Below are positions 12,912-19,897 of a stretch of 39,006 bases of DNA, in pieces. How positions within the stretch are numbered: the stretch's first letter is position 1; each line of letters opens with the position of its first letter. Origin of the DNA: Lysobacteraceae bacterium (GTDB taxonomy: Bacteria > Pseudomonadota > Gammaproteobacteria > Xanthomonadales > Xanthomonadaceae). The notes beneath the pieces are model-generated. The model was given only the letters and a program-made list of their open reading frames with translations, did not search any database and had not been told where the DNA came from. The stretch spans positions 1 to 39,006 of the forward strand of contig JAJTGG010000009.1 in NCBI GenBank assembly GCA_021299355.1, written 5' to 3'. A program made the position numbers and the translations under genes.

Positions 12912-13538
12912 TTAATCCGCATAGGCTTTGGACAGGGTGTGCAGATGTAGGCGCTCGGTATCGCGCAGGAAGGGGGAAACCAGCATCATGACCTGTACGA
13001 TGCCCTGCTGGATGGCCCGCTGCTCATCCTTTTCGCCCCGGACATTGGCATAATTCAGCCAAAACGTGGCCAAAACCAGAATATTGGTGGCCAAGCCCTC
13101 GATTTCAGCCGCGCTGGCTCGCATGGCCCCGGTTTCGGTCAGGCCGCGCATGATGCCTTGGGCATTTGAGGAGCCGCGTTTCAGAATCCGCGCAAATCTT
13201 AGGCGTAAGTTCCTATTTCTACTGAGAATATTAATGATATCGCGGTAGATGAAGCGGTAATTCCAGATGCACTCGAAGACCAGATGGAGCTGCAGCCAGA
13301 CATCTTCGAGTGTGACATCGCGGCCTTCGGGCGCCACCAAGGCCTGGTCCATACGTTCCTCGAAACGCAGGAACAGCTGTTCGATGATGTCGTCTTTGTT
13401 TCGGTAGTGATAATACAGATTGCCTGGGCTGATTTCAAGCTCATCGGCGATGTGGTTTGTGGAGATATTGGTTTCGCCCTGTTCGTTGAACAGGCGTAGG
13501 GCGACATCCAGAATGCGGTTTCGGGTTTTTCCGGACAC
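12912..13538 (-). CDS. TetR-family regulator, PhaD-like, 208 aa
   Basis: The N-terminal 55 residues form a TetR helix-turn-helix domain (RNRILDVALRLFNEQGETNIS...IADELEISPGNLYYHYRNKDDI). The whole protein resembles Pseudomonas PhaD, the regulator of phasin and PHA genes that is thought to sense acyl-CoA-type intermediates. Shared features include LFNEQGE..NIST..IA.EL.ISPGNLYYH near the N-terminus, YRF near residue 100 and VMMLVSPFL near the C-terminus. It starts at GTG 13538, one nucleotide after the stop of the acyl-CoA-binding protein gene, so the two are translationally coupled. Phasin and PHA-granule-region proteins nearby support a role in lipid or PHA granule control. It may act at the repeats at 13837-13862; that is an inference. 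Confidence 0.85.
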   Translation of the reverse strand: MSGKTRNRILDVALRLFNEQGETNISTNHIADELEISPGNLYYHYRNKDDIIEQLFLRFEERMDQALVAPEGRDVTLEDVWLQLHLVFECIWNYRFIYRDIINILSRNRNLRLRFARILKRGSSNAQGIMRGLTETGAMRASAAEIEGLATNILVLATFWLNYANVRGEKDEQRAIQQGIVQVMMLVSPFLRDTERLHLHTLSKAYAD

Positions 13539-13539
13539 G

Positions 13540-13797
13540 TCAGTCCTTCAGGGAGTGCACAAGGTCGACATATTTCTTCATGGCTGATTCCCGGCTCGTG
13601 CCTTCAAGCTTCTGCCAGGCCTGGTACTTCGCCGAGGCCACGAAATCGAACATGCCCGGCGCCGGTCCGCTGACATCGCCTTCCGAGCCCTGTTTGTAAA
13701 GGCCGTACATGCGCAAGAGAGTATCGTTGTCGGGCCGCTTCTTGAGATTCTTGGCCTCGAGGGCGGCCAGCTCAAATTGTTCCTGCAGTGTCGCCAT
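13540..13797 (-). CDS. Acyl-CoA-binding protein, 85 aa
   Basis: This is a small cytosolic four-helix protein that binds medium- and long-chain acyl-CoA esters and delivers them to enzymes. It is full length for the family. The signature YGLYKQGSEGDVSG (about residues 31-44) and the following MFDFVASAKYQAWQKLEGTSRESAMKKYVDLV, which carry the Tyr and Lys residues that contact CoA and the acyl chain, are clearly present. ACBPs are universal in eukaryotes but patchy in bacteria. It is the first gene of a two-gene operon with the PhaD-like regulator and is divergent from a fatty acyl-CoA reductase. That placement suggests it supplies or buffers the reductase substrate. Confidence 0.95.
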   Translation of the reverse strand: MATLQEQFELAALEAKNLKKRPDNDTLLRMYGLYKQGSEGDVSGPAPGMFDFVASAKYQAWQKLEGTSRESAMKKYVDLVHSLKD

Positions 13798-13809
13798 GGA
13801 AGAAGTCCT

Positions 13810-13837
13810 TTGACCAGATGTCGGATTCCAGTATTAT
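13810..13837 (+). promoter_or_regulatory. Sigma70 promoter of the acyl-CoA reductase gene
   Basis: TTGACC (13810-13815) and TATTAT (13832-13837) are 16 bp apart on the plus strand. Transcription would start near 13844, leaving a leader of about 68 nt before the ATG at 13912. The -10 end touches the first copy of a direct repeat (13837-13845), so a bound regulator would block initiation. Confidence 0.7.
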
Positions 13838-13862
13838 GCATTAAACTGCGATTTGCATTAAA
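13837..13862. repeat. Direct repeat TGCATTAAA x2, candidate operator
   Basis: Two identical 9-mers TGCATTAAA (13837-13845 and 13854-13862) start 17 bp apart, a little under two helical turns, in the divergent region between the ACBP-regulator operon and the reductase gene. They lie at the predicted start site of the reductase and across the likely -10/-35 region of the opposite promoter. This is a plausible site for the adjacent TetR-type regulator, although TetR operators are usually inverted repeats. Confidence 0.45.
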
Positions 13863-13911
13863 AAATCAAGCACCTATTCAATATTTAACGGGAAAGGAAT
13901 CGGGTAATTTT

Positions 13912-15900
13912 ATGGCTTATTTCGTCACAGGCGCTACCGGCTTCATCGGCCGTTTTCTGGTCAGCAACCTGCTGAAACGCAAAGGCCAGGTGCATGTGCT
14001 GGTACGTAAAGGCTCGGCCAAGAAACTCGGCCAGATCGGCGAGGCCATGGGTTGGGACATGAAACGTATCATTCCGGTCACCGGTGATCTGTCCAAACCC
14101 AAGTTGGGTCTGGCTGCCGCCCAGATTACCGCACTCAAGGGCAAGATCCAGCATTTCTTCCATCTGGCCGCCATTTACGATCTTACCGCCGATGCCGACA
14201 GCCAGAAGCTGGCTAATATAGGTGGCACCAAGAACGCTCTGGAGCTGGCGGCGGTCATCAAGGCCGGCTGTTTTCATCACACCAGCTCCATTGCCGCAGC
14301 CGGGCTGTATCCCGGCGTGTTCCGTGAAGACATGTTCGACGAGGCCGAAGGCCTGAAAGACCCTTACCTGAAGACCAAGCATGAATCGGAAGGTCTGGTA
14401 CGCAAACAAAGCGCCGTGCCTTACCGCATTTACCGGCCATCGATGGTGGTCGGTCATTCCAAAACCGGTGAAATCGACAAAATCGACGGCCCTTACTATC
14501 TGTTCACCCTGATCAAGAAAATCCGGCAGACCCTGCCACAGTGGATGCCGACGCTCGGCATCGAGGGCGGCCGCATCAATGTCGTGCCGGTCGATTTCGT
14601 CGCGGATGCCATGGATCACATCGCGCACAAAAAAGGACTGGACGGGCATTGTTTCCATCTGGTCGATCCGGAACCGATGCGCTTCGGCGAGCTGATGAAC
14701 ACGTTCGCGCGTGCCGCACATGCGCCGGAGATGACCATGCGTCTGGATGCCCGGATGTTCGCGTTCATCCCGGCTCCGATGCGGATGGCGGTCACCAATC
14801 TGCCGCCGGTGAGGCGCCTGACCAATATGATTCTGCGTGATCTGAAAATTCCCAAATCGACGCTTGAATTCATCACCTATCCGACCCGTTTCGACACCCG
14901 TGAAGCCGAGCGGGCATTGAAAGGTTCGAAAATCAGCGTGCCGCCGCTCGACAGTTATGCCTGGCGCCTTTGGGATTACTGGGAACGCAATCTCGACCCC
15001 GATCTTTTCATCGACCGTTCGCTGCGCGGCAAGGTCGAGGGCAAAGTGGTGCTCATCACCGGCGGCTCGTCCGGCATCGGCAAGGCTGCCGCCCTCAAGA
15101 TCGCCGAAGCCGGTGCCAAAGTGGTCATTGCCGCCCGTGGCGAGCAAGAGCTCGAAGCGACACGCAAGGAAATCAATGATGCCGGCCATCTGTGCTACGC
15201 CTTCAAGGCTGATCTTGCCGATCTGGATTCCTGTGACGGCCTGATCGAACAGGTGACCAAGCAGCATGGCGGTGTCGATATCCTGATCAACAATGCCGGT
15301 CGTTCCATCCGCCGCTCGATCGAGCTCAGTTTCGACCGGTTCCACGACTTCGAACGCACCATGCAGTTGAATTATTTCGGTTCACTGCGTCTGATCATGC
15401 AGTCGCTGCCGGGAATGATCGCCAAGCGTCGTGGACATATCATCAATATTTCATCCATCGGTGTTCTGGCCAGTTCGCCGCGCTTTTCGGCCTACGTGGC
15501 TTCAAAGGCAGCCTTGGATGCGTTCAGTCACTGCGCCCAGGGCGAGCTGTCCGGCAAAGGCATCAGCTTCACCACCATCAACATGCCCTTGGTGAAAACG
15601 CCTATGATTGCACCGACCAAGATGTACGATTCGGTGCCGACACTCAGCCCCGAAGAGGCTGCCGACCTGATCGTCAAGGCCATCATCGACAAACCGAGCC
15701 GTGTCGCCACCCGACTCGGGGTGTTCGCCGGCGTGGTACATGCGGTGTTCCCGAAGGCCTATGAAGTGGTAATGAGCACTGCTTTCGAACTGTTCCCGGA
15801 CTCGGCAGCAGCCAAAGGCATGGCCGGCCGGGGCGATGCCGCCAACCCGACCAACGAGCAAATCGCATTCGCATCCCTGATGCGCGGCGTGCACTGGTAA
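13912..15900 (+). CDS. Two-domain fatty acyl-CoA reductase (alcohol-forming), 662 aa
   Basis: I assign this to the family of Marinobacter Maqu_2507, a roughly 660-residue enzyme that reduces acyl-CoA through the aldehyde to the fatty alcohol with NADPH. Length and many blocks agree, for example EGGR.N.VPVDFV, YPTRFDTRE.ER.LKG, DYWERNLDPDLF and NNAGRSIRRS. The N-terminal extended-SDR domain (1-370) has TGATGFIG at 6-13 and Y152/K156. The C-terminal classical SDR domain (about 375-660) has TGGSSGIG at 383-390, NNAG at 460-463, S514/S515 and Y528/K532. Both active sites look intact. The ATG at 13912 is chosen because the GATGFIG fold starts right after it; an in-frame extension upstream has no domain and overlaps the promoter. 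A wax-ester, fatty-alcohol or ether-lipid role is inferred. Databases often label it only 'SDR family oxidoreductase'. Confidence 0.9.
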   Translation: MAYFVTGATGFIGRFLVSNLLKRKGQVHVLVRKGSAKKLGQIGEAMGWDMKRIIPVTGDLSKPKLGLAAAQITALKGKIQHFFHLAAIYDLTADADSQKLANIGGTKNALELAAVIKAGCFHHTSSIAAAGLYPGVFREDMFDEAEGLKDPYLKTKHESEGLVRKQSAVPYRIYRPSMVVGHSKTGEIDKIDGPYYLFTLIKKIRQTLPQWMPTLGIEGGRINVVPVDFVADAMDHIAHKKGLDGHCFHLVDPEPMRFGELMNTFARAAHAPEMTMRLDARMFAFIPAPMRMAVTNLPPVRRLTNMILRDLKIPKSTLEFITYPTRFDTREAERALKGSKISVPPLDSYAWRLWDYWERNLDPDLFIDRSLRGKVEGKVVLITGGSSGIGKAAALKIAEAGAKVVIAARGEQELEATRKEINDAGHLCYAFKADLADLDSCDGLIEQVTKQHGGVDILINNAGRSIRRSIELSFDRFHDFERTMQLNYFGSLRLIMQSLPGMIAKRRGHIINISSIGVLASSPRFSAYVASKAALDAFSHCAQGELSGKGISFTTINMPLVKTPMIAPTKMYDSVPTLSPEEAADLIVKAIIDKPSRVATRLGVFAGVVHAVFPKAYEVVMSTAFELFPDSAAAKGMAGRGDAANPTNEQIAFASLMRGVHW

Positions 15901-15922
15901 TCATCAGTACCAAGCGGATACG

Positions 15923-15950
15923 AAAAAAGCACCGCAAGCGGTGCTTTTTT
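15923..15950. terminator. Strong bidirectional intrinsic terminator
   Basis: A 12-bp stem of six A/T and six GC-rich pairs (15923-15934 with 15939-15950) and a CAAG loop sits between the convergent reductase and phasin genes. A-run and T-run flank it symmetrically, so it can terminate both transcripts. Confidence 0.92.
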
Positions 15951-16016
15951 CGGTTTCATGCCGGTCAGGTCCGCGCCGGGAGGGAAGCGCAGTCCGGGTT
16001 CACCGGCCTCTGAAAC

Positions 16017-16586
16017 TCAGGCCTTCGGCGCGCGCGGCGTCGGTGCTTTCGGCAGAACCGCCTTGGCGGATTTCTTAGCCGGAGCGGCTTTCTTGGATGC
16101 CTTCTTGACGGCCTTCTTGACCGGCACGGCCGCTTTTTTCGCGGCCGGGGCTTTGCCATTCTGCTTACGCAGTTCAGCAGTGAGGGTTTCGACACGCTTG
16201 TTCAAGCCGGCCAGATCTTCACGGGTCGGCACGCCGAGACGGGTCAGGGCGCGCTGCACGCGGTCTTCGAAGACCTTTTCCATTCGGTCCCAGGTATCTG
16301 TGGCTTTTTCGCGAACGTTTTCGACGCGGTCTTCGACGCTGGCACGCACGACATCGACTTTGCCATTGGCCAGTTTACGGGTCTGAGCTTCCAGGCTCAT
16401 GCCTTTCTTGACCAAGGCATCGAACATGTCGGTACCTTCACCTTGGGCGCGTGCCAAGGCACCAACACCGGCGGCCCAGATTTGCTGGGCAGTGCTGATT
16501 AGGTTGTGCGAAGCGGCTTCGGCGCTTTTGGCGCCCGGCTTGCGGCTTGCGGTTTTGGTACGGGCGGCTTTTTTGAGCTTGGCCAT
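16017..16586 (-). CDS. Phasin / PHA granule-associated protein with histone-like tail, 189 aa
   Basis: Phasins coat polyhydroxyalkanoate or other lipid inclusions. Residues about 25-125 form the amphipathic helical phasin region (LISTAQQIWAAGVGALARAQGEGTDMFDALVKKG..., then VRASVEDRVENVREKATDTWDRMEKVFEDRVQRALTRLGVPT). The C-terminus from about 140 is an Ala/Lys/Pro-rich tail with KKAVKKASKKAAPAKKSAK, like the DNA-binding tail of Pseudomonas PhaF, which ties granules to the nucleoid. The ATG is preceded by a GAGG ribosome site. A PhaD-like regulator 3 kb away is consistent with control, since PhaD regulates phasins in Pseudomonas. No PHA synthase is in the window, so the inclusion type remains open. 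Confidence 0.9.
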   Translation of the reverse strand: MAKLKKAARTKTASRKPGAKSAEAASHNLISTAQQIWAAGVGALARAQGEGTDMFDALVKKGMSLEAQTRKLANGKVDVVRASVEDRVENVREKATDTWDRMEKVFEDRVQRALTRLGVPTREDLAGLNKRVETLTAELRKQNGKAPAAKKAAVPVKKAVKKASKKAAPAKKSAKAVLPKAPTPRAPKA

Positions 16587-16703
16587 GGAGTAACCTCAAT
16601 ATTTGGGAATGGGGGTGACAAGCCGCTGTTCCGACTCGGTGACTATTGTGGGGCACTTGTCTAGAGCAAACACACCAGAAATCAAAGGTTTCCGGTCATG
16701 ACT

Positions 16704-17933
16704 TCAGCGGGTTTTGCGTTGCCGCAGTCCGTATTCGATATCGTCGAGGTTATGCCAGAGTTGCGCGGTCGCCGCCGTCCGGCGGTAGACCGGGGTGATG
16801 CCATCGAGCAGGGTAATCTCGGGATTTTCCAGAACCGACATGTTCAGGGTCAGGCCATGCTTGGCGAGGAGCGGAGCCAGCTCAGCGGCCCGTGATTTCA
16901 GATCACGCAGGGTGCTTTGGAATGCATGTTCGCACACGCGATGCCGCGAGGAATAACTGAAGACGTTGGTGAAGAACATTTCTGCATCGTCTTCGTTCGG
17001 CTCCAGAACCAGCTGGTCGGTTTCCGGATATTGACGGGCGTACTTTTCCAAGCCGACCTGCATGCGGGACTGCAACAGGGTACGGAACGTCTGCGAAAGT
17101 ACCATCGGCAATCCGCCATCAGCGAGCTTGACCGCAGCTTGTTTGTCCTTGGGGCGGTTCTTGGCATTGAACGGAACGAATGGATTGATGCCGATCATCA
17201 AATCGATGCCATGATCGAGTACGACCGAGGCATGCATGGTACGGCGCAGGGCGCCATCCACGAAATGATGGCCGTTGATGTCGACAGGGGGGTACAGGCC
17301 CGGCAGTGCGGCGCTGGCCTGTACGGCCTGCGAAATCGGCACCGAATCCCAGTCCTTACTGCCGAATCGTACCGCCTTGCCCTGGTCGAGATCGACGGCA
17401 ACCACGTACAGTGGCCGTTCCAGTTTCCGGAAATCATTGCTGCGTCCGGGTCCGGTGAAGATGTTTTTCAGGAATTTCTCGATGGGCGCGTTATCGAAAA
17501 GACCGGTTGGAACCGCGCCGGTGAAACGCGAGGTCAGTTCGCCGAGCTGTGAGCCGCTTGGGTCGGTGATCAGACTCTTCCACCAATCCACGGCGAGTCC
17601 GGGCAGGGCCGAAACGCGTTTGCCGAACTCCATGAAGGCCGGTTTCAGGAACATGCGCGGGGAAAAATGGATTTCCGGGTGATTGTTGGTGATGAAAATC
17701 TGGCAGATTTCCGCCGTGCTGAGGCGGTTGACCAGTCCGGCAGCGAGGAAAGCCCCGGAGCTGACGCCGACATAGACATCGAGGCGGTTGAGGTCCAGTC
17801 CATCGATGGCCAATTCCAGCGCCCGCAGGGCACCGAGTTCATACATGCCTCCGATGGGGCCGCCGCCGGCAATGGCGAGGCCGATTTTGCCTTGGTGTTT
17901 GGAGGACTGACTGGCGGCCTGCAATACGAGCAT
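16704..17933 (-). CDS. Patatin-like phospholipase / acyl hydrolase, 409 aa
   Basis: This is a serine acyl hydrolase of the patatin family. The Ser-Asp dyad and oxyanion loop are all visible: GGGPIGG at 23-29, GVSSG at 56-60 with nucleophile S58, and DGA at 226-228 with D226. There is no signal peptide, so a cytoplasmic or membrane-peripheral role is likely, such as release of fatty acids from phospholipid or stored lipid. The C-terminal 180 residues extend beyond the catalytic core (RLQ-rich segments, then a helix with HNLDDIEYGLRQRK). It lies upstream of the phasin gene on the same strand with about 118 bp between. In this neighbourhood a granule or lipid-droplet lipase is a reasonable guess, not shown by the sequence. 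Confidence 0.9.
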   Translation of the reverse strand: MLVLQAASQSSKHQGKIGLAIAGGGPIGGMYELGALRALELAIDGLDLNRLDVYVGVSSGAFLAAGLVNRLSTAEICQIFITNNHPEIHFSPRMFLKPAFMEFGKRVSALPGLAVDWWKSLITDPSGSQLGELTSRFTGAVPTGLFDNAPIEKFLKNIFTGPGRSNDFRKLERPLYVVAVDLDQGKAVRFGSKDWDSVPISQAVQASAALPGLYPPVDINGHHFVDGALRRTMHASVVLDHGIDLMIGINPFVPFNAKNRPKDKQAAVKLADGGLPMVLSQTFRTLLQSRMQVGLEKYARQYPETDQLVLEPNEDDAEMFFTNVFSYSSRHRVCEHAFQSTLRDLKSRAAELAPLLAKHGLTLNMSVLENPEITLLDGITPVYRRTAATAQLWHNLDDIEYGLRQRKTR

Positions 17934-17947
17934 GAAGTGGTCGTGAT

Positions 17948-17978
17948 TTGACGTTGGATTTCATTGTAAGGCTAAAAT
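17948..17978 (+). promoter_or_regulatory. Predicted promoter for the gene at 18011
   Basis: TTGACG (17948-17953) and TAAAAT (17973-17978) are separated by 19 bp on the plus strand, slightly long. A start near 17985 would give a leader of about 26 nt before the ATG at 18011. Confidence 0.5.
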
Positions 17979-18010
17979 AGTCCGAGTCCAATCACCGGGT
18001 GTGTCCACAC

Positions 18011-18733
18011 ATGGCGGTCAATGAGCTTCAAAACCGCCTTGCGAGGCGCCTGCGATGGCAGAAACAGGCGCATCTGTTGGAAAAACAGGATGTTGTGCTC
18101 GCCAAGTGGTTGCCGGTCCTGCGTGCATGGCAGGCGAAACGCCTCGCGGCAAGTTTTGCCCACTTCATGGATGATGCGCGCAAACAGCCGGCAGCCGCCT
18201 TCTTCCTGTCCGATCTTTACGGCGATGCCGATTTCATGAAACGTGACGAGGAAGCAGCCAAAATCCTCCCAAAAATGTCACGGCTGCTTCCCGAAAGCCT
18301 GTTGACGGCGGCTGTAGATGCCATCGAGTTGTCAGTTCTCAGCCACGCCATCGATATGCGCATGGCCAGAGATCTGCATAACACTGGCAGAAAGCCCGCG
18401 TCTTTGGATGCCGAGCTTTACCAAAGGGCTTACCGCAGTGTCGGATTGCGCCGCCTGCGCCGGCGCCAGATTGATCTGGTCTTGGATGTCGGTTCACGCC
18501 TGGACGTCGTCGTACAGAAGCACGGCATATCCAAACTGCTATCGGCTTCGCGGCTGCCGGCACGCATGCTCGGTCTGCAGCATCTGCAGAGTTTTCTTGA
18601 ACGGGGCTTCGGGGCTTTCAACTATCTCGGCGGTGCAGATGATTTTCTTGATGAAATCCATCGTCAGGAAACCTGTATCGCAGATCGCCTTGCGGCCGGC
18701 AACGCCAATCCGTTCACGCCACCATTCAGCTGA
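18011..18733 (+). CDS. Conserved protein of unknown function (FFLSDLYG motif), 240 aa
   Basis: I do not know a named function. The protein is helical and rich in Arg and Leu, without signal peptide or membrane segments. A central block (about residues 52-105) reads FFLSDLYGDADFMKRDEEA followed by MSRLLPESLLTAAVDAIELSVLSHAIDMRMARDL. Similar FFLxDLYG/RD/LP patterns occur in uncharacterised proteobacterial proteins. The ATG at 18011 is preferred; a GTG four codons upstream is possible. It diverges from the patatin gene and overlaps the PHA-granule-region gene tail-to-tail by 8 nt, so it sits inside the putative lipid-granule locus. A granule-related role would rest on location only. Confidence 0.8.
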   Translation: MAVNELQNRLARRLRWQKQAHLLEKQDVVLAKWLPVLRAWQAKRLAASFAHFMDDARKQPAAAFFLSDLYGDADFMKRDEEAAKILPKMSRLLPESLLTAAVDAIELSVLSHAIDMRMARDLHNTGRKPASLDAELYQRAYRSVGLRRLRRRQIDLVLDVGSRLDVVVQKHGISKLLSASRLPARMLGLQHLQSFLERGFGAFNYLGGADDFLDEIHRQETCIADRLAAGNANPFTPPFS

Positions 18734-19001
18734 ATTCTTCGTCCAGATAGCGTTCAATTTCGGTTTCGATCGGACCTTTGAGTGCCGACAGGAAAAAACC
18801 GAGATCGGCGAAGACATGGATGGATTTCGGATTCACTTTGATATGGCCGTCAACACCAGAGCGGCTGAAGTTGAGCATGTTGCCGTCCCATTCGCATTCG
18901 ACATCGAATTTCTCCACGATGTGATCGGCGACTTTCTGGACCTTTTTCTTGGCCTTGGCGATTTCAAGGCTGTGCGTACGTTTGATGTCGATCGCGGCCA
19001 T
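18726..19001 (-). CDS. Polyhydroxyalkanoic acid system (PHA_gran_rgn) family protein, 91 aa
   Basis: This short protein fits the PHA_gran_rgn family, whose members are found near PHA synthesis and granule genes and whose biochemical role is unknown. Recognisable parts are the N-terminal IDIKRTHSLEIAKAKKKVQKVADHI helix, the central ECEWDGNMLNFSRSGVDGHI strand pair and the C-terminal GPIETEIERYLDEEF. It has no signal peptide. The fold resembles small START/SRPBCC-like or alpha-beta modules, which is a guess. With the phasin and the PhaD-like regulator it is the third PHA-type marker within 6 kb. Its stop lies inside the end of the opposite-strand gene (18726-18733). Confidence 0.88.
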   Translation of the reverse strand: MAAIDIKRTHSLEIAKAKKKVQKVADHIVEKFDVECEWDGNMLNFSRSGVDGHIKVNPKSIHVFADLGFFLSALKGPIETEIERYLDEEFS

Positions 19002-19093: not shown

Positions 19094-19897
19094 ATGCACT
19101 GGCTACTTCACATTCCCGGACAACCTGCAGCGACAATCGGCGAATCACCGCTTCGCATCGGTTCGGACCCGGCTTCGGAGATCTATCTGGCACAGCCTGG
19201 CGTAGCTCCCCTGCATGCGCGTTTGATTCCCGATGCCGCTGGACTATTGTGGATTGAGCCGGCTGCCGATGATATTGCGGCCGTGCACGTCAATGGCCGC
19301 CGCATCGTACGTGGCGCCCTGTTGGCTCCGGGCAGCGAGCTGCATTTGGGAAGCTGCGCCTTGCGGCTTAGCTCGGCCGGTAAGCCTGATGCCGCGCGAA
19401 GACCCGCATCCCAGCCGATCAATTTCTCCGGGCGGGTACTTTTGAGGGCGCTGAGCGGGGCCGAGGCAGGACGGGGCCATGTGCTGGTCAACAGCCTGTG
19501 CATCGGACGTTCCGATCTGTCCGAGGTCCGTGTCGACGATACCGCGCTCGCCGAGCGCCAGATCCTTCTTCAACGTCAGGGTAATGATATTTTCGTCAAA
19601 AATCTCAGTCCTGTGCTGGAGATGCGCGTTGATGGGTGGGTTTGCGAAGAGGCCGTTCTGCAACCGGGAGCACACATCAGCATCGAGCAGCATCGCTTCC
19701 GGTTCGAGGCGCCCACCTGCGAAACCGCTACGCAGATAGAGCCGGAAATGGCAGAGCCGTTTCAGCCCGTCAACGCCAAAGACACCACGCCGGCCGATCC
19801 GGCAAGGCCTATTTTCAGTCCGGCGCAATGGATTCTGCTGGCTGTGGCCGTCGCCATCTCTGGTTTTTTCATCATTCTGCTCAGTTTTTCGCCGTAA
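19094..19897 (+). CDS. Tandem FHA-like domain protein with C-terminal membrane anchor, 267 aa
   Basis: Residues about 1-95 resemble a forkhead-associated domain, a phosphothreonine-binding beta sandwich: LRIGSDPASEIYL, then PLHARL, then VHVNGRRIVRGALLAPGSELHLGSCALRL. Residues about 112-210 repeat the pattern (LCIGRSDLSEVRV, AERQILLQ, MRVDGWVCEEAVLQPGAHISIEQHRFRF). The usual Ser before the His is missing in the first copy (A-P-L-H41), and the second has Gln in place of the His. Phosphopeptide binding may therefore be weak or lost. Residues about 243-264 form one hydrophobic helix, so the protein is a tail-anchored membrane protein facing the cytoplasm. It stands alone, with no kinase or secretion gene nearby, upstream of serC. 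Confidence 0.75.
   Translation: MHWLLHIPGQPAATIGESPLRIGSDPASEIYLAQPGVAPLHARLIPDAAGLLWIEPAADDIAAVHVNGRRIVRGALLAPGSELHLGSCALRLSSAGKPDAARRPASQPINFSGRVLLRALSGAEAGRGHVLVNSLCIGRSDLSEVRVDDTALAERQILLQRQGNDIFVKNLSPVLEMRVDGWVCEEAVLQPGAHISIEQHRFRFEAPTCETATQIEPEMAEPFQPVNAKDTTPADPARPIFSPAQWILLAVAVAISGFFIILLSFSP

Follow-up and report, generated by a model that had tools for sequence, protein, structure and literature searches.

A Probable Wax-Ester Storage Cluster

The stretch of DNA analyzed here covers positions 1 to 39,006 of contig JAJTGG010000009.1 in the Lysobacteraceae assembly GCA_021299355.1 (39,006 nt, hereafter the window). Seven genes in a 6-kb part of the window probably form a module for the synthesis, coating and turnover of wax-ester stores, and two of their products, a phasin and a PHA_gran_rgn protein, are common to this module and to polyhydroxyalkanoate (PHA) systems. 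The other five genes encode a TetR-family repressor, an acyl-CoA-binding protein (ACBP), a two-domain fatty acyl-CoA reductase (FACR), a patatin-like acyl hydrolase and a protein of the FFLEELY family. All seven were named in an original prediction made from the sequence without database searches. They lie where that prediction placed them, appear intact, and have matches to known families, including a Maqu_2507-type FACR, a phasin with a basic tail and a patatin. The prediction proposed either a module for neutral-lipid inclusions (wax ester or fatty alcohol) that uses PHA-type proteins, or a PHA locus tied to acyl-CoA reduction. Comparative evidence from genomes favors the former, in its wax-ester form. 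The wax-ester product, the binding to droplets and the regulation are inferred from gene content and gene neighborhood.

In the proposed mechanism, ACBP would hand on long-chain acyl-CoA and FACR would convert acyl-CoA to fatty alcohol in two reduction steps. A wax synthase (WS/DGAT) would then join the fatty alcohol to a second acyl-CoA to give the wax ester. A coat of phasin and PHA_gran_rgn would form on the droplet surface. The basic tail of the phasin would bind DNA and tie the droplets to the nucleoid, so that they could be shared out at division, as PhaF does for PHA. The patatin would break down droplet lipid under carbon shortage, the TetR protein would govern the divergent ACBP and FACR promoters, possibly through acyl-CoA sensing, and the FFLEELY protein is predicted to be an additional wax-droplet protein.

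The assembly is 1.66 Mb in size and 85% complete. The nearest homologs of its reductase among named genomes are those of Arenimonas and Silanimonas (77-79% identity), and by sequence the genome is that of an Arenimonas-like Lysobacteraceae. In agreement with this, WS/DGAT has identical coordinates in the Arenimonas fontis genome (G146) and in G298, which is classed in the genus of our genome. The original prediction recorded neither a PHA synthase nor a wax synthase in the window, and both absences were borne out. PhaC was not found anywhere in the assembly, either with PF07167 (PhaC_N) or with TIGR01836 (class III) at E 1e-20, a threshold that yields sub-cut-off class I-like matches in other genomes. 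Three genus mates, 99-100% complete, likewise gave no PhaC match, and none was found in the isolates Silanimonas lenta and Arenimonas fontis. The genome does encode one WS/DGAT, on contig 46 (G000:C46:30187-30969), with WS_DGAT_cat and WS_DGAT_C domains above cut-off and an HHCYADG motif. The genus of the window (this genome and its three mates) is positive for FACR, WS/DGAT, phasin and PHA_gran_rgn, and negative for PhaC. As read from the translations, the WS/DGAT gene lies between photolyase-like and bacterioferritin-like genes. A photolyase-like gene also adjoins WS/DGAT in most of the other Lysobacteraceae stretches compared (12 of 15; e.g., L089:6687-10032).

Phasin Occurrence and the Wax-Ester Genes

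We searched each of 150 genomes of the order for FACR, PHA_gran_rgn, PhaC, WS/DGAT and PF05597 phasins. FACR was found in 97 genomes, WS/DGAT in 99, PhaC-like matches in 81, PHA_gran_rgn in 139 and a phasin in 130. The phasin is termed clear in 116 genomes; in the 14 others, the phasin match is no stronger than E 3.8e-6. FACR and WS/DGAT occur together in 97 genomes and are both missing from 51, two genomes have WS/DGAT only, and none has FACR only. WS/DGAT is therefore present in 97/97 FACR-positive vs. 2/53 FACR-negative genomes. Clear phasins follow the same division (97/97 vs. 19/53), but occur in 56/81 genomes with PhaC vs. 60/69 without it. Clear phasins thus track FACR and WS/DGAT better than they track PhaC. 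The original prediction was to be given up if its genes co-occurred no more often than expected in related genomes; instead, the co-occurrence is strong, and every one of the 97 genomes with FACR has a clear phasin as well as WS/DGAT.

The association of phasin with FACR persists within each PhaC class. Among PhaC-positive genomes, clear phasins are found in 39/39 with FACR vs. 17/42 without. Among PhaC-negative genomes, they are found in 58/58 with FACR (our genome included), 57 of which also have PHA_gran_rgn, vs. 2/11 without FACR, and those two are the genomes that have WS/DGAT only. Nine genomes lack FACR, WS/DGAT and PhaC; none of these has a clear phasin and three have PHA_gran_rgn. PhaC is almost universal in family f152 (25 of 26 genomes), and there clear phasins occur in 4/4 genera with FACR vs. 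1/10 genera without it (p 0.005, kinship ignored). One FACR gene in the sample (G228:C28:10968-12934) was matched in two adjoining parts that lie in different frames, perhaps because of a frameshift or an assembly error.

At the level of the class, 143 genomes were sampled, about one per family, with one sub-cut-off WS/DGAT fragment (G117) excluded. PF05597 phasins were found in only six, of which five have WS/DGAT above cut-off and four have PhaC. WS/DGAT occurs in nine genomes of this sample and PhaC in 40, only four of which have the phasin. The phasin gene stands close to WS/DGAT in two of the six genomes (as neighbors in G068, about 5 kb apart in G139) and beside FACR in two (our genome and G107). 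The G068 locus (L124), from a distant family, has ACBP, WS/DGAT, phasin and TetR together, and that genome also has PhaC.

Conservation and Rearrangement of the Locus

The gene neighborhood was compared across 80 FACR loci. These are the best 80 of more than 559 FACR matches, come from named genomes only and are biased toward close relatives, and some end at contig ends. The neighbors found were TetR (57 loci), ACBP (57), phasin (46), patatin (36), PHA_gran_rgn (31), a TPR-like protein (30), FFLEELY (29) and WS/DGAT (12). All six neighbors of FACR in the window recur together in 23 of the 80 loci; thus, the grouping exceeds chance. The product of the TPR-like gene (e.g., L010:7439-8293) is conserved and matches TPR only weakly; the gene lies beside TetR or WS/DGAT and is not in the window. 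In 15 loci, FACR is followed by a protein that has a restriction-endonuclease domain of the Mrr type and a hydrophobic stretch near its N terminus (e.g., L009:3451-4440), which was not found in the window either.

The most complete loci are L120 and L122, from PhaC-less genomes of family f148, in which the order PHA_gran_rgn-FFLEELY-patatin-FACR-ACBP-TetR-phasin-TPR-WS is held within about 9 kb. L121 and L123 have this same nine-gene order except for a FFLEELY match. Loci of the Wenzhouxiangella type (L105-L109) have the order WS-TPR-phasin-TetR-ACBP-FACR; four of these five genomes are PhaC-less and the fifth (G276) has a sub-cut-off PhaC-like match. Loci of the Rhodocyclales type (L069, L075, L081, L086) read PHA_gran_rgn-ACBP-WS-TPR-TetR-patatin-phasin-FACR, and all four genomes also have PhaC-like matches. 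Among the PhaC-negative, FACR-positive genomes outside family f149, the phasin lies within 10 kb of FACR or WS/DGAT in at least 30 of 36 (three without coordinates). These linkage counts are lower bounds, as phasin coordinates were missing for four of the 58 such genomes and WS/DGAT coordinates for several.

Relatives without FACR retain less. In the 15-kb stretches from six FACR-negative, PhaC-positive genomes (L110-L115), the only genes found of those sought were PHA_gran_rgn, the phasin and an Mrr-like gene, with TetR in addition in L113. The Mrr-like gene, related to the one that follows FACR elsewhere, remains beside the phasin where FACR has been lost. In four more FACR-negative relatives (L116-L119), three of them PhaC-positive and one (L119) PhaC-negative, only PHA_gran_rgn was found. 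ACBP, patatin and FFLEELY were not found in any of these ten stretches. This suggests, from ten stretches only, that the locus splits into a wax-linked part (FACR, WS/DGAT, ACBP, patatin, FFLEELY and mostly TetR) and a part shared with PHA systems (phasin and PHA_gran_rgn).

Alternative Interpretations

The phasin and PHA_gran_rgn families take their names from PHA, and the cluster could be a PHA granule locus or what remains of it, the reductase being a neighbor without any functional relation. A genome-level search for PhaC and WS/DGAT in 50 of the 80 named-locus genomes and our own found a class III PhaC above cut-off elsewhere in 28 of the 51, and the pair of phasin and PHA_gran_rgn was kept with PhaC after the loss of FACR and WS/DGAT in L110-L115. 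We nevertheless consider this reading very unlikely, because 58 of the 97 FACR-positive genomes of the order, our own included, gave no PhaC match. All 58 have a phasin, the three genus mates of 99-100% completeness also gave no PhaC match, and it is FACR and WS/DGAT that clear phasins follow more closely. The same counts disfavor the PHA locus tied to acyl-CoA reduction that the original prediction had entertained. WS/DGAT enzymes are often bifunctional, and FACR and WS/DGAT are unlinked in our genome, so the product might instead be free fatty alcohol or triacylglycerol (TAG), with FACR serving another alcohol-using pathway and WS/DGAT making TAG. The coincidence of the two enzymes across the order (97/97 vs. 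2/53), together with their proximity in several families, points to joint use, and we consider such a product improbable. We think it similarly improbable that the genes are a long-standing operon for lipid handling in general, in which phasin, FFLEELY and PHA_gran_rgn would serve as chaperones of acyl lipids or as stress proteins, with no droplets formed. PHA_gran_rgn is indeed kept in three of the nine genomes that lack FACR, WS/DGAT and PhaC, and phasins are "multipurpose proteins" in the title of one review (PMC5658603). Against this, none of the nine has a clear phasin, and patatin, FFLEELY and ACBP were not found beside the genes that remain in the ten FACR-negative stretches.

Several observations weigh against a wax-ester module. 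None of the six neighbors is found in 19 of the 80 FACR loci, including all 11 from Marinobacter; thus, FACR can function without them. In family f149, the phasin lies within 10 kb of FACR or WS/DGAT in 0/22 genomes (one without coordinates). WS/DGAT is absent from the window and unlinked to the cluster in our own genome. As our assembly is 85% complete, the absence of PhaC leans on the three genus mates of 99-100% completeness. The Fisher tests on the order sample ignore kinship among genomes. PhaC-like matches are also present in 39 of the 97 FACR-positive genomes, and the phasin may serve PHA there. Among the 42 PhaC-positive genomes without FACR and WS/DGAT, a clear phasin is encoded in 17 and PHA_gran_rgn in 39, which makes neither of them specific to wax. 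The original prediction would also have been undermined by phasin and regulator neighbors conserved without reductase and ACBP, and this was found in part: PHA_gran_rgn, with or without the phasin, persists in the ten FACR-negative relatives (L110-L119), nine of them PhaC-positive. Both genes are therefore not exclusive to the wax module.

A wider form of the wax-ester reading, which we hold as a tentative conjecture rather than an expectation, is that in Xanthomonadales and relatives PF05597 phasins, together with patatin and FFLEELY, are primarily native wax-ester droplet proteins of a nine-gene organelle module. PHA granules would share the phasin and PHA_gran_rgn secondarily, and FFLEELY would be a new class of lipid-droplet protein. 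To our knowledge, few proteins have been described that natively coat the wax-ester and TAG droplets of bacteria. If phasins do coat wax droplets in bacteria without PhaC, a phasin gene would no longer be a sign of PHA. Silanimonas lenta and Arenimonas fontis would then be clean test organisms for how neutral-lipid droplets are built, positioned and consumed, and the FFLEELY and PHA_gran_rgn families would gain a testable role.

Proteins of the Cluster

FACR (13912..15900, + strand) scores 980 bits with PRK07201/NF005539 (cut-off 549). The match covers model positions 1-657 of 657, that is, two fused reductase domains (NAD_binding_4 and adh_short) at full length. Glycine and YxxxK motifs are present in both domains (GATGFIG and YLKTK, GGSSGIG and YVASK). 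PRK07201 is the family that we take to be the Maqu_2507-type reductases, and FACR is assigned to this type by the family model. A sequence search of the PDB with FACR at E 1e-20 gave only single-domain or partial matches to short-chain dehydrogenases/reductases. The assignment fits the homologs in Marinobacter (60-62% identical to FACR) and the wax-locus reductases of PMC10351704, whose identity with MAQU_2507 is 58.8-61.9% (49.5% in one case). ACBP (13540..13797, - strand) is divergent from FACR and matches PF00887 (E 1.7e-29).

The phasin (16017..16586, - strand) matches PF05597 (E 4.8e-40; 137 bits, cut-off 28.8) and TIGR01837 (113.8 bits, cut-off 94.7). Its Lys/Ala-rich tail of 46 residues contains 14 Lys and no Asp or Glu, and the protein is likely to be both a droplet coat and a nucleoid tether. 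Three PF05597 matches were found in our genome at E 0.001 and one at E 1e-10, so additional diverged phasins are possible. The patatin (16704..17933, - strand; PF01734, E 1.4e-28) has GVSSG and DGA motifs and is likely to be a droplet lipase. We considered a defense lipase of the CBASS type and rejected it; the match scored 40.7 bits against a cut-off of 200, and a patatin homolog occurs in 36 of the 80 FACR loci.

The FFLEELY protein (17999..18733, + strand) had been listed as unrecognized in the original prediction, but matches the FFLEELY family model NF047641 (E 2.9e-64). Its predicted structure is all-helical (pLDDT 89). We did not find a Foldseek match to this model in the PDB (best E 0.43), and the best match by sequence is the chlamydial protein CT584 (E 0.025). 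PHA_gran_rgn (18726..19001, - strand) matches PF09650 (E 4.7e-30; 104.2 bits, cut-off 26.6) and TIGR02610 (92.3 bits, cut-off 40.25). Its predicted structure (pLDDT 94) has a beta-sheet and two long helices, which differs from the highly helical form predicted for four phasin Pfam families, PF09650 among them, in the review PMC5658603. A sequence search of the PDB gave no match at E 1, and Foldseek gave none below E 0.001 (best E 4.1e-3). The top Foldseek matches include cyclase-like and KA1 folds, which is weakly suggestive of a lipid-binding-like fold. An FHA-domain protein adjoins PHA_gran_rgn (19094-19897, + strand); it has two FHA-like domains, and its C-terminal end looks hydrophobic by eye. 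A cluster of FHA-like proteins, judged on two members, recurs in 24 of the 80 FACR loci, in most cases close to PHA_gran_rgn.

Regulation

The TetR-family repressor (12912..13538, - strand) has TetR_N and PF13972 domains, forms a gene pair with ACBP and is likely to be a local regulator. Its earlier description as PhaD-like found no support. None of its 19 NCBIfam matches bears the name PhaD, and each falls far short of its cut-off, with no check made on whether that library includes a PhaD model. The 114 bp between the divergent ACBP and FACR genes (13798..13911) is the probable site of TetR control and was compared with the same region in 50 loci. The region in the window is, by eye, A+T-rich vs. 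G+C-rich in the closest relatives. An inverted repeat of the type GGTCAAT-N10-ATTGT was considered as a TetR operator and rejected. It is found in 13 of 51 ACBP/FACR intergenic regions, not including that of the window, and overlaps likely -35 boxes. The 8-mer GCGTTGAC is found upstream of ACBP in 13/37 loci, of WS/DGAT in 13/24, of TetR in 8/37 (across ACBP) and of PHA_gran_rgn in 3/25. It was not found upstream of FACR (0/39), phasin (0/33), patatin (0/28), FFLEELY (0/23) or TPR (0/19), nor in the stretch upstream of WS/DGAT in our own genome. The 8-mer may be a mere shared -35 element and is treated here as weak evidence.

Comparison with Known Systems

The cluster resembles the wax-ester pathway of Marinobacter in that the reductases are of the same family over their full length and our genome also encodes WS/DGAT. 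It differs in its setting: none of the six neighbors was found in the 11 Marinobacter loci, whereas the reductase here lies within a cluster with phasin, patatin, FFLEELY and PHA_gran_rgn.

The phasin has a basic tail like that of PhaF in the medium-chain-length PHA loci of Pseudomonas, and the family of PhaF is presumably of the PF05597 type. Those loci include PhaD, but the TetR protein here is unconfirmed as PhaD and PhaC was not found in our genome. A DNA-binding role for PhaF is described in PMC5658603. Phasins can bind neutral-lipid inclusions, since PhaP1 of R. eutropha binds TAG inclusions according to the review PMC6273058, which cites Hanisch et al. (2006). In that case the phasin was expressed artificially in a heterologous host, whereas here it is proposed to be a native wax-droplet protein.

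The closest precedent is PMC10351704 (2023). On its betaproteobacterial scaffolds, WS/DGAT lies beside ACBP, two scaffolds have a MAQU_2507-like reductase (59.2% and 58.8%) together with a PHA-system family protein, and a third has a phasin. The paper attributes the phasin to PHA metabolism, and the section concerned is silent on the absence of PhaC. Its main text mentions neither patatin nor TetR, and the paper is not among the literature matches for FFLEELY; all three belong to the cluster described here. Among the open-licence PMC papers listed, judged by title and abstract opening, it alone links a phasin with a wax-ester locus native to bacteria, and no open-licence PMC paper was found on wax esters and Xanthomonadaceae together. 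The claim of the original prediction that no such system had been described was thus too strong. Part of the neighborhood was already known from PMC10351704, and the full set was found neither in the parts of that paper covered nor in the literature listings. The cluster is probably a variant of the known wax-ester pathway. Relative to that precedent, what is new is the tie between a phasin and wax-ester genes in PhaC-free genomes, the placement of FFLEELY, patatin and TetR in the putative module, the nine-gene cluster and the association counts.

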